Made by a program: the position numbers and the translations under genes | Assembly (NCBI GenBank): GCA_029432775.1 | Contig: JAROAZ010000006.1 | Coordinates: 124,001 to 188,000 of the forward strand | Reading direction: 5' to 3' | Source of the DNA: Pontiellaceae bacterium B12227 | Lineage (GTDB): Bacteria; Verrucomicrobiota; Kiritimatiellia; Kiritimatiellales; Pontiellaceae | DNA: 64,000 bases | Shown here: positions 2,908 to 51,441 of the stretch, piece after piece | Position numbering within the stretch: the stretch's first letter is position 1 | Layout: every line of letters begins with the position of its first letter | The notes under the pieces: model-generated | Databases searched by the model: none | Told to the model about the DNA's origin: nothing | The model's input: the letters and a program-made list of their open reading frames with translations, nothing else

Positions 2908-4194
2908 ATGGAACCAATCATTTTAAAGAGAGCCGACCACAATGTCAGCCGACAGAATATGACTTCTGCGGCTGTTAAAGTGTTATACCGACTCAAAGAC
3001 GAGGGCTATACCGCCTATGTGGCGGGCGGCGGCGTTCGAGATCTGCTACTGAACCGAAACCCCAAAGACTTCGATGTAGCCACCAATGCAACCCCGGAAC
3101 AAATTCGAAAAATGTTTCGTAACTGCCGGCTGGTGGGGCGGCGCTTCCGTCTGGCGCACATCCTTTTCCGCGGAGAAGTCATTGAAACCGCCACCTTCCG
3201 GGCACCGGTTCCTGATGATGGCGACGAAACGGTCCACTGCGAAAATACCCTGAGAGTCGGCGAATCCGGCATGGTGATGCGCGATAATATTTTCGGCACG
3301 CCGGAAGAAGATGCCATGCGCCGCGATTTCACCATCAACGCCCTCTTCTACAACATTGCCGACTTTTCCATTATTGACTACGCCGGCGGCCTGAAAGATC
3401 TCGACGACAAAATTATCCGCGTCATCGGCGAACCGGACAAACGGTTTGCTGAAGATCCGGTTCGCATGATCCGCGCCGCCCGGTTTGCCGGCACGCTTGG
3501 CTTCGAAATAGAACAGGAAGCCTACGAATCCATCTGCCGGAACAAGGATCTCCTGGCTTCCGCAGCTCCCTCGCGCATGTATGAAGAGGTGCAGAAGCTG
3601 TTTTTCTGCGGCCACGCCAAAGAAGTGTTCCAATGGTTGGAAAAAACCGGGTTGCTGCACCCGATGTTTCACGACTTCTCCCACTGGATCGATGAAGATA
3701 AGGCGCGGCATGACTGGGTTATCCAGACACTGGAACAAATGGACCGCTGGCGGCAGGCAGGCCTGCGGGTGCATCCTGCCCTGCTGTTTTCTCTGATTTT
3801 CGGGGAGTATCATGAATTCCTGATCAAACAGCTCGAAGAGGGCGGCCAGACACCGCACGATGCCTCCCGCAATGCCATTCAGAACCATCTGCGGCCCATG
3901 TGCGACAATGTGCGGGTTCCAAAACAGGTGATCTATCAGGTCTGCGACATCATGACCAACCAGCGGCGGTTTGAGCGCACGCAGGGGCGGCGCCCTCAGC
4001 GTTTTATCCAGACCCGCGGCTTCCTCGACGCCTTTCTGTTTTTTAAATTTTCCTCCAAAGCGCATAACCGGAACCAGGAATTGCTCGAATTCTGGACGGA
4101 ACAGCGGAAATCAAATCCGCCGAAACAGACCCAGCGCAAAAAGAAACGGGGCCCCAACAACACCAATCCCGATGGCGAAATGCCAATCGAGTAG
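2908..4194 (+). CDS. pcnB: Polynucleotide adenylyltransferase (poly(A) polymerase I)
   Basis: A 428-residue class II nucleotidyltransferase that adds poly(A) tails to RNA 3' ends and so marks them for decay. From the ATG at 2908: GGGVRDLLL at 40-48, catalytic DFDVATN at 54-60 (Asp54, Asp56), and RRDFTIN near 138-144. [10 protein letters not shown] at 75-84 is the signature that separates bacterial PAP I from CCA-adding enzymes. The C-terminus is Lys/Arg/Pro rich, as in PAP I. A longer reading from GTG at 2857 would start inside the terminator stem, so I reject it. A copy of the 15-bp palindrome (3628-3642) lies in the coding sequence. Confidence 0.93.
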
Positions 4195-4297
4195 GAAATT
4201 ATTACCAAAACACACTTGTGTACGGCCCCATACCTTAGATACATTTTTGTATTACGGATTGCCCGAAAATAATCAGGCCTCCAAGAAGGATGCAAAA

Positions 4298-5830
4298 ATG
4301 AATCAGAGCGAAAAAGAACTAAACGTTCTCTATAATATCTCGCAGACTATCTCTGCACGTCAGCATAATATTTCCGAACTGCTGAACGAGGTTCTCCAGA
4401 TTATGGAAACCGACATGGGTGTACTGCGCGGAACACTGACCCTGCGCAAACCCGGAACCAATATTCTCAACATTGAAGCGTCCAGCGGTCTGTCCAACAG
4501 CGAAGTACTGCGAGGTCAATACGAACTGGGCGAAGGGGTTACCGGACGCGTGGCCCAGACCGGCGCTGCCGAGCTGATTCCGGACATCAATGAGTCGAAT
4601 GACTTCCTGAACCGGACCAAAGCCCGCGACGACGAAAAAACCGCATTCATCTGCGTACCGATCATCCACCACAAGGAAGTGATCGGCACCATGAGCATCG
4701 ACCTGCCTGCCATGGATGAGGTCGAGCTGAAAGGCTATACCCTCTTTCTTGAGCATGTGGCCCAGATTCTGGCCTCGGCCGTATCGACCATCCGCGAGGA
4801 AATTGAAGAACGCAATGCGCTTGAATCCGAGAATGAAATGCTGCGCCGCCAGCTGGGCGACCGCTACAGCATCGACAACATGGTCGGCAACTGCAACTCT
4901 ATGCGCCTGATCTACGAACAGATCGTTCAGGTGGCCGACAGTGCCGCGACGGTGCTTGTTCGCGGTGAGTCGGGAACCGGTAAAGAGCTGATTGCCCGCG
5001 CCATCCACTTCAACAGCCCGCGCAAGAACAATGCCTTCATCAGCGTCAACTGCGCCGCTCTTCCTGAAAACCTGATTGAGTCCGAGTTGTTCGGTCATGA
5101 AAAAGGCGCCTTCACCGGAGCCCAGCAACAGCGGAAGGGACGTTTCGAATTGGCCAACGGCGGCACCATCTTCCTCGACGAAATCGGAGATATCTCACCG
5201 GCCGTACAGGTTCGTCTGCTACGCGTGCTGCAGGAAAAATCCTTTGAACGCGTCGGAGGAAACGAAACCATCACGGTGAATGTACGCGTGGTAGCCGCCA
5301 CCAGCCGCAATCTGGAAGAAGGGATGACCAACAGTACTTTCCGTGAGGATTTGTATTACCGCCTCAATGTTTTCCCTATTCTTCTACCGCCGCTGCGAGA
5401 ACGCAAATCCGATATTCTACTGCTCGCCGACCACTTCCTGCAGAAATATGGAGGAATGTACGGCAAGGAGATGAAACGTATTTCCACTTCCGCCATTAAT
5501 ATGATGATGGCCTATCACTGGCCCGGTAATGTCCGCGAGCTGGAAAACTGTATTGAACGCGCCGTGCTCACCTCTTCAGACGGGGTGATCCACGGATTCA
5601 ACATGCCGCCGTCGTTGCAGACCAGCGATGAAACCCACACAAATCTGCTGCCTGAAAACGGTGCCAACCTGCGCCAGATGGTTGAGGCTTACGAACGCGA
5701 AATTCTGATCGACGCCCTGAAAAAACACCGGGGCAATGCAGCGGCTGTTGCGCGTTATCTTCAGACCACGCAGCGCATCATCAACTACCGCATCAAAAAC
5801 CTCGGCATCGATCCGAGAAACTACAAATAA
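4298..5830 (+). CDS. NifA-like sigma-54-dependent transcriptional activator (GAF-AAA-Fis)
   Basis: A 510-residue enhancer-binding protein and paralogue of the gene at 220. GAF domain about residues 1-165, a short coiled linker, then AAA+ with Walker A GESGTGKE near 222-229, GAFTGA near 270-275 and [11 protein letters not shown] Walker B, and a Fis helix-turn-helix near 478-502. The chosen ATG follows the ribosome site AAGGA; the same frame stays open upstream to 3971 but overlaps pcnB. The signal sensed by the GAF domain is unknown. It lies 4 bases before prmC, which suggests a shared transcript with prmC and the SprT-like gene. Confidence 0.9.
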
Positions 5831-5834
5831 CCTC

Positions 5835-50482: not shown

Positions 50483-51310
50483 TTAACCCGAAGTCTCGTT
50501 TTCCCAAACCAGGATCGCGCGCTTCCGCTCCGTGCCCCACGCATAACCGCCCACAGCCCCCGTTTCCCGAATCACACGATGGCACGGAATCAGGAATCCG
50601 ATCGGATTTTGTCCCACAGCCGTACCGACGGCCCGCGATGCCTTTGAATTCCCGACCCTGGCGGCCAACTGACCATAACTCAGCAGCTTTCCCTCAGGAA
50701 TCTCCAGCAGGGCCCGCCAGACTTTGACCTGAAAGGCCGTGCCTTTCACATAAGCCTTCAACGGCTCCTGAGCTCGAAAATCCGGTTTAAAAATCATCGA
50801 ACACAACTCATGGGCCCTCATATCATCTTTAACCAGCTCTGCATGGGGCCAACGACTCTCCAGTTTCTTCCAATGGCTGGAAACTTCCAGAGGTTGGAAA
50901 AAAGAGAGATGGCATATGCCGCGCGGACTTTCGGCAATCAGACAATTCCCGAACGGACTCTCTGCAATTCCGGCCTGGATGATCCATCCTTTACCCCCGG
51001 TTTTGATCTCTCCCGGCGTTGCCGCCTCCAGATTCACACAGAGATCATGCAAACGGCCAGGACCGGATAAGCCGGAATCCAACGCGGCATCCAGCACACT
51101 TTTTCCTTCCTGCAAACGGCGCCGGGCATCAGACAATGTCAGACATTGGAGAAAATCTTTGGGTGTAATCCCGGCCCAGCCGGAAAACAAACGATGAAAG
51201 TGCGACGCACTTAAGCCCACGATCCGAGCGAGGGTTTCCAGGTTGGGCTGGGTCTCCCGATGCTCTTCGATATAGCGAATCACACGGGCGATACGTTCAT
51301 AGTCAGTCAT
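50483..51310 (-). CDS. AraC-type HTH / methylated-DNA-protein cysteine methyltransferase fusion
   Basis: A 275-residue protein related to the Ada C-terminal half. Residues about 5-95 form an AraC-type DNA-binding domain (LETLARIVGLSASHFHRLFSGWAGITPKDFL). Residues about 105-272 form an O6-alkylguanine transferase domain with the active-site PCHRV and the winged helix (SYGQLAARVGNSKASRAVG). The Ada N-terminal zinc domain is absent. It should repair O6-alkylguanine and may also regulate genes. The ATG at 51310 gives the conserved start. Two palindrome copies lie in tandem inside (50868-50899). Confidence 0.9.
   Translation of the reverse strand: MTDYERIARVIRYIEEHRETQPNLETLARIVGLSASHFHRLFSGWAGITPKDFLQCLTLSDARRRLQEGKSVLDAALDSGLSGPGRLHDLCVNLEAATPGEIKTGGKGWIIQAGIAESPFGNCLIAESPRGICHLSFFQPLEVSSHWKKLESRWPHAELVKDDMRAHELCSMIFKPDFRAQEPLKAYVKGTAFQVKVWRALLEIPEGKLLSYGQLAARVGNSKASRAVGTAVGQNPIGFLIPCHRVIRETGAVGGYAWGTERKRAILVWENETSG
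50868..50899. repeat. Tandem pair of 15-bp palindromes
   Basis: TTCCAATGGCTGGAA (50868-50882) and TTCCAGAGGTTGGAA (50885-50899) are separated by 2 bases (17-base repeat period) within the Ogt-type gene. Confidence 0.95.
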
Positions 51311-51397
51311 AAATGCAATATGCCATGCACTGCAGAAACCGCCCACCCGATTCTTGCTGCGGATTTTACAATGATTGAAAAATCCGCTGAGCGGACA

Positions 51398-51428
51398 TAA
51401 AAAAAGCGCCCCGCAAGGGACGCTTTTT
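51398..51428 (-). terminator. Rho-independent terminator of rpoBC operon
   Basis: On the minus strand, AAAAAGCGTCCC-TTGC-GGGGCGCTTTTTTT (one G-U-type pair in the stem). It lies about 22 bases past the rpoC stop and abuts a 15-bp palindrome. Confidence 0.9.
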
Positions 51429-51441
51429 CCAGTGGTTGGAA
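51427..51441. repeat. 15-bp palindrome TTCCAGTGGTTGGAA
   Basis: Intergenic copy between the rpoC stop (51450) and its terminator. Confidence 0.95.

Follow-up and report, generated by a model that had tools for sequence, protein, structure and literature searches.

The DNA considered here, a stretch of 64,000 nucleotides of contig JAROAZ010000006.1 from Pontiellaceae bacterium B12227 (hereafter the window), carries pcnB-, prmC-, tolQ/exbB- and pspF-like genes, a lacI-family gene, cobQ and, near its end, rpoB. Scattered through these genes and the DNA between them is a short gapped palindrome, which was scored as TTCCANNNNNTGGAA, with significance taken from 100 dinucleotide shuffles of the window. 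All open reading frames (ORFs) used below are longest-ORF heuristics and not trained gene calls. Computed directly, the pattern matches 26 times, compared to a shuffle mean of 0.08 and a shuffle maximum of 1. The 25 copies named by an earlier reading made from the letters alone (the sequence-only reading) are all confirmed at their coordinates, and one further copy, at 6431, had been overlooked. Its claim that position 6 is a purine and position 10 a pyrimidine is true for all 26. The gap is strict: none of the other gaps between 0 and 11 gives more than one match in the window, whichever half-site comes first. Eight copies had been called intergenic. This count is slightly high, as 6 of the 26 are not wholly within an ORF by longest-ORF calls; the intergenic excess itself stands, with 8 of 52 sites in a 124 kb sample of the organism's own genome lying between called ORFs (44 inside), where intergenic DNA makes up 7%.

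The same reading saw no copy beyond 51.5 kb, and for exact matches this holds. The 12.6 kb after 51,441, which contain rpoB and a 1,417-aa ORF at the place of rpoC, show zero exact sites (P = 0.015 at genome density) and one copy with a single mismatch at 53490. Avoidance in highly expressed genes is a possible reason for the lack of exact sites in 51442-64000, with a P of only 0.015.

The closest cobQ proteins, 82-83% identical to that of the window, belong to Pontiellaceae bacteria B1224 and B12219. The sites and their fate in these two species are given below; all are palindromic sites to which no strand is assigned.

3628..3642, no strand, palindromic site inside the pcnB-like gene 2857-4194
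6431..6445, no strand, palindromic site overlooked earlier, inside the prmC-like gene 5736-6701; not kept in B12219
6609..6623, no strand, palindromic site inside the prmC-like gene; not kept in B12219
6867..6881, no strand, palindromic site inside ORF 6701-7330; kept in B12219
10980..10994, no strand, palindromic site inside the lacI-family gene, 61 bp from the next site; not kept in B12219
11041..11055, no strand, palindromic site inside the lacI-family gene; kept in B12219 with altered middle
11716..11730, no strand, palindromic site inside the tolQ/exbB-like gene; kept in B12219
14166..14180, no strand, palindromic site; kept in B1224 and B12219
17267..17281, no strand, palindromic site in cobQ; kept in B1224 and B12219, absent in three more distant relatives
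18190..18204, no strand, palindromic site in cobQ; kept in B1224 and B12219
18920..18934, no strand, palindromic site inside an ORF; kept in B1224, not in B12219
20060..20074, no strand, palindromic site inside an ORF; kept in B12219, not in B1224
20533..20547, no strand, intergenic palindromic site; kept in B1224 and B12219
24012..24026, no strand, palindromic site inside a short ORF; not kept in B12219
24452..24466, no strand, palindromic site inside an ORF
25234..25248, no strand, palindromic site inside the pspF-like gene; kept in B1224, not in B12219
27745..27759, no strand, palindromic site inside an ORF; kept in B1224 and B12219
28187..28201, no strand, palindromic site at the edge of ORF 27527-28192
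32313..32327, no strand, palindromic site between called ORFs
35553..35567, no strand, palindromic site inside ORF 35101-36441
39365..39379, no strand, palindromic site between called ORFs
47175..47189, no strand, palindromic site between called ORFs
48217..48231, no strand, palindromic site between called ORFs
50868..50882, no strand, palindromic site, first member of a pair spaced by 17 bp
50885..50899, no strand, palindromic site, second member of the pair spaced by 17 bp
51427..51441, no strand, palindromic site, the last of the window ahead of the rpoB region

A scan of the whole own genome (G000; 6.29 Mb in 206 contigs) revealed 2,106 sites and 3 matches to the reversed control pattern, a count that is not near chance. 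Within the same genus (28 genomes) the number of sites ranges from 1 to 2,106, and the 14 genomes of a second family in this order have 162 to 1,049 sites. Of 288 genomes sampled from the phylum, 97 are members of the class, which we take to be Kiritimatiellae; 27 of these, belonging to 11 families, have at least 51 sites. The remaining 70 class genomes have at most 17 sites each, and the 191 genomes from outside the class at most 16. Even congeners diverge, with 110 sites in G284 and 3 in G271, and 178 in G111 and 3 in G295. No other gapped palindrome of comparable strength was found in samples of the motif-poor genomes G017 (114 kb), G009 (52 kb) and G048 (60 kb), or in smaller samples of G013 and G056. 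In the G017 sample (L099, L101-L107), CCGGCGCCGG is mildly over-represented, with 12 occurrences compared to 1.9. G098, another member of the phylum, contains the reversed control pattern 55 times and the motif not once, so that another repeat may exist there. A contig titled Desulfuromonadaceae (L007) has a cobQ 74% identical to that of the window; its bin label may be wrong. Among the papers listed by literature searches, which covered open papers only, none was seen to describe the motif, and five spellings of it gave no match.

The positions of the sites are conserved between orthologues. Aligned DNA is 76% identical to the window in B12219 and 78% in B1224, where 11 and 18 of the 26 sites, respectively, could not be aligned. 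Of the alignable ones, 9 of 15 are kept in B12219 and 7 of 8 in B1224, whereas the same 12 positions are kept in 6.6% of 19,688 and 8.3% of 13,020 background 15-mers from the same DNA. Lone half-sites are kept in 18 of 42 (TTCCA) and 17 of 39 (TGGAA) cases in B12219, and in 13 of 36 and 11 of 26 cases in B1224. Five of the eight sites alignable in both species are present in all three genomes. Sites inside genes fall in all three reading frames. Where the encoded amino acids are identical and each gene site is counted once, 2 of 3 are kept in B12219 and 5 of 5 in B1224, compared to 15% of background 15-mers with identical amino acids. The arms are also intact despite an amino-acid change at 5 of 8 (B12219) and 1 of 2 (B1224) gene sites, and the three middle bases of kept sites are often altered. 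Twelve orthologous non-sites from B12219, B1224 and three more distant relatives were aligned; 7 differ by substitutions only and 5 show small gaps or an insertion.

The base preferences are those of double-stranded DNA. If the motif functioned as an RNA hairpin, G..U would be expected to exceed A..C at positions 6 and 10 in the sense strand. In transcript orientation, the relative G029 has 20 A..C and 20 G..T, and with four sets pooled 43 A..C face 32 G..T, so that no excess of G..U is seen. Each strand carries a purine, the pattern that a symmetric protein on double-stranded DNA would make. The site extends to (TT)TTCCARNNNYTGGAA(AA), with T preferred just outside each arm. The first flanking base is T with a frequency of 0.50 in the own genome; for the first and second base the values are 0.72 and 0.54 in G029 and 0.96 and 0.89 in genomes with arrays. 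The preference stops after about 2 bases, giving a conserved unit of at most about 19 bp. Copies with a single deviation show graded degeneracy: position 4 is replaced hardly above background, A5 to G is common in the own genome and in G029, and C3 to T is common in G029. Among 117 such copies in G029, 54 deviate at the innermost fixed base and 19 at the outermost, while the 35 copies of the own genome deviate 15 times at the outermost and 12 times at the innermost position.

Neighbouring sites keep to the turn of the helix in two relatives. In 800 kb of G029 sampled at even steps, 19 successive gaps below 120 bp lie at 22, 31-32, 40-43, 53, 63, 82-85 and 116 bp, corresponding to a 10.5-bp periodicity with R = 0.86 (p about 8e-7). 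In G001, the 13 gaps among the first 50 sites listed have R = 0.90 (p about 3e-5). The own genome contains 114 pairs spaced by 16-45 bp, compared to about 21 expected (5.4-fold excess), and 65 pairs at 46-75 bp, about 3-fold over independence; spacings were measured on 50 pairs of each class. Among the closer pairs they are 17 bp (nine pairs, the commonest single spacing), 21-23, 27-35 and a few at 38-45 bp, and none is 18-20, 24-26 or 40-42 bp. The spread of the wider pairs is broad.

Sites also form arrays. A search for triple arrays spaced by 30-33 bp found them in 48 of 288 class genomes, with at most 203 matches in a single genome, and 72 distinct arrays total 244 sites at a period of 31-32 bp. 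Several array regions, and several regions of G000, were picked for holding clusters. The identity of adjacent spacers is 0.32, compared to 0.29 for random ones; because this is near random, most array spacers have no visible common origin although the spacing is held. Of 41 arrays, 23 lie wholly inside an ORF of at least 200 aa, and longest ORFs can run through arrays. In the own genome, one six-site array with spacings of 30-32 bp is flanked by two ORFs that contain CBM6 domains. L274 and L304, from two families of the class, each have an array flanked by a guaA-like and a carB-like gene, as judged by eye; this is perhaps a conserved array position. In viral contigs the array pattern was found in 3 and the single 15-mer in at least 120 stretches. 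One of these contigs (IMGVR_UViG_3300035698_006241; L263, L264) carries the motif in two groups, one of three sites and one of four, also encodes Mu-like portal and protease proteins and a match to a C5-cytosine methylase, and is perhaps an array-bearing phage or prophage of a motif-rich host.

Most sites lie in genes: as in the own-genome sample, the majority of sampled sites in G029 (136 of 178) are inside called ORFs. Enrichment between ORFs is about 2-4 fold in four sets from this order, and some arrays end directly before an ORF. By eye, pairs of sites in G000 enclose an apparent intrinsic terminator, a GC hairpin with a T run, at C22:39163-39233, C66:13186-13256, C88:103377-103451, C124:65128-65195 and C125:29613-29692. 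G029 consists of one contig of 3.88 Mb, on which the skew turns near 1.42 and 3.47 Mb. In 40 samples, its 178 sites are uncorrelated with the distance to the origin (rho -0.04, p 0.83), and its terminus side is not depleted, so that no origin or terminus bias is found in this relative. Between samples the counts vary more than expected by chance, with a variance of 8.4 at a mean of 4.5. Four of the 40 samples are free of sites; 7 of 10 proteins scanned there match Pfam, including transporters and a glycosidase, and we take these stretches for accessory DNA.

Taken together, these properties point towards a putative double-stranded DNA site of a dimeric, cooperative, sequence-specific protein, probably a chromosome organiser, a reading we hold with somewhat better than even confidence. 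A dimer of this kind would occupy adjacent sites in a cooperative manner, aligned along the same helix face with two, three or more turns between them, and would join across sites. A phased cooperative dimer on double-stranded DNA would account at once for the symmetry, the gap, the degeneracy, the phasing, the arrays and the conservation. Because the sites are widespread and their neighbours have no shared function, we infer a chromosome-wide task, such as nucleoid architecture or looping, rather than control of particular genes. Sites would probably arise and decay mainly through substitution, and in lineages without sites the binding protein would be absent or lost. Among the possibilities raised by the sequence-only reading, the dimeric protein or nucleoid organiser is best supported, by the strand-symmetric purine rule, the phasing in two relatives, the 31-32 bp arrays, the graded degeneracy and the upkeep inside genes.

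Several observations weigh against this interpretation. In the own genome the 10.5-bp phase is weak (p 0.06 and 0.013) and the 17-bp class is strong and out of phase. The period of the arrays is not independent evidence, as most of them come from the search restricted to spacings of 30-33 bp. Duplication has produced some of the array units, because 7 of 100 adjacent spacer pairs are at least 70% identical, compared to 0.8% of random pairs. Single deviations in the own genome are most frequent at the outermost position, similar to the cyanobacterial palindrome HIP1. Retention at identical amino acids, set against about 15%, is complete in one species (5/5) but only 2/3 in the other. Moreover, the 37 Pfam-matched neighbours include no convincing binder, although the 33 unmatched ones could hide one; Lrp/AsnC and ParB do not track the motif, and the sigma-54 activators were examined in 8 genomes only.

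The search for the presumed binding protein compared 31 motif-rich genomes (at least 82 sites) with 33 motif-poor ones (at most 15 sites). Lrp/AsnC was rejected as binder, being present in 31 of 31 motif-rich and also in 28 of 33 motif-poor genomes. Its recognition helix varies among about a dozen readable plus-strand proteins from motif-rich genomes, and 26 of 30 Lrp loci were inspected, with one motif site among them. The ParB family (helix domain PF17762) was likewise rejected, with 27 of 31 and 33 of 33 genomes and nearly always one strong copy. ComEC, found in 30 of 31 and 31 of 33 genomes, does not track the motif by its presence either. For the sigma-54 activators with their HTH_8/Fis-type helix, a tree of 30 of 37 matches from 8 genomes and two window proteins (L237 was dropped) contains no clade with all motif-rich genomes and no motif-poor one; one weakly supported pair is rich-only. 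Beside arrays, clusters or single sites, 70 proteins were scanned against Pfam, 37 with a match and 33 without. The matches comprise TonB, beta-propeller, dTDP-sugar, pantoate, ketoacyl-synthase, RecR, Lgt, sulfatase-modifying, CBM6 and aminotransferase proteins and others, and one extracytoplasmic function (ECF) sigma factor adjoins a single site. GuaA- and CarB-like array neighbours were recognised by eye.

Other explanations account for part of these findings. In a DNA-uptake sequence, a receptor prefers DNA that carries the motif, and uptake with recombination enriches and keeps it. The density, the occurrence inside genes in all three frames, the kept positions, the site-free stretches with transporter and glycosidase genes and the patchy presence among relatives all resemble such a signal; the uptake sequences of Neisseriaceae and Pasteurellaceae likewise occur in many short copies kept in resident genes. 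The uptake-type signal suggested by the sequence-only reading would account for the spread and the conservation, but not for the helical spacing. The near-universal ComEC of motif-rich genomes is matched by that of motif-poor ones, and neither helical phasing nor arrays at 31-32 bp are predicted. Uptake signals, including those of the two families named, are not known to be gapped palindromes or to form helical arrays. We regard this explanation as unlikely. Operators of a global transcription regulator would overlap with the favoured reading, as such a regulator is also a dimeric DNA-binding protein, and the enrichment between ORFs and the arrays ending just before an ORF fit them. With 44 of 52 and 136 of 178 sampled sites inside called ORFs and nameable neighbours of unrelated kinds, the global regulator proposed earlier finds little support, and we consider it improbable. 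The self-spreading short repeat, also proposed earlier, fares worst. A mobile element of the repetitive extragenic palindrome (REP) or miniature inverted-repeat transposable element (MITE) kind would agree with the high copy number, the arrays with their few near-identical adjacent spacers, and the 5 of 12 non-sites that align with small gaps or an insertion. The lack of conserved sequence beyond about 19 bp, the 7 of 12 non-sites that differ by substitution only and the mostly unrelated spacers make it very improbable.

A highly iterated palindrome of the HIP1 type, made and maintained via DNA methylation and biased repair, would be dispersed, palindromic, located in genes and patchy among relatives, as is the case for the 2,106 copies here, compared to 3 of the control. 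The motif also contains CCAN5TGG, a known restriction site. Single deviations are common and in the own genome most often concern the outermost position (15 of 35). In G029 they peak at the innermost position instead, and the helical phasing of neighbours is not predicted; we therefore see little likelihood in this origin. In HIP1, deviation is greatest at the outermost positions (PMC4390886); G029 departs from this pattern, the own genome not clearly so. Similarities to HIP1 are a very high copy number, the palindrome, rarity in some relatives and many single deviations, whereas the motif described here is gapped 5-5-5, with phased neighbours in two relatives and arrays at 31-32 bp; HIP1 is tied to methyltransferases (PMC4390886). 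We place the motif among the highly iterated palindromes by its description and not by its mechanism.

Returning to the putative dimeric organiser, known systems with related sites can be compared. The operators of Lrp/AsnC proteins, for example the Ss-LrpB boxes, are also 5-5-5 palindromes of 15 bp, arrayed at intervals of about three turns; here, the Lrp gene occurs with and without the motif and the helix varies among readable motif-rich proteins. Noc and SlmA sites are likewise dispersed palindromes with a cooperative dimeric binder, but far fewer and depleted at the terminus, whereas the terminus side of G029 is not depleted. The site matS is palindromic too and, similar to the motif, has a purine and a pyrimidine directly within its arms; its protein MatP is a chromosome organiser. 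There are 23 matS sites in one 800-kb domain (PMC3330122), whereas about 2,100 sites are present here and no restriction to a domain is seen in the relative sampled.

The patchy presence of the motif among close relatives provides natural pairs with and without it for finding the protein and testing its role. Known bacterial nucleoid proteins tend either to bind loosely or to recognise a few dozen exact sites. Tentatively, and with well under even confidence, we suggest that these bacteria may possess a chromatin system of their own, in which a nucleoid protein would use thousands of exact palindromic addresses, selectively kept in genes and nucleating helically phased rows, so that folding would be written in the sequence; such a system would have arisen and disappeared several times in a single class. 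Should the protein be found and shape the nucleoid, this would represent a new kind of bacterial chromatin, and part of the folding plan of a chromosome would be readable from its sequence via conserved, phased addresses.

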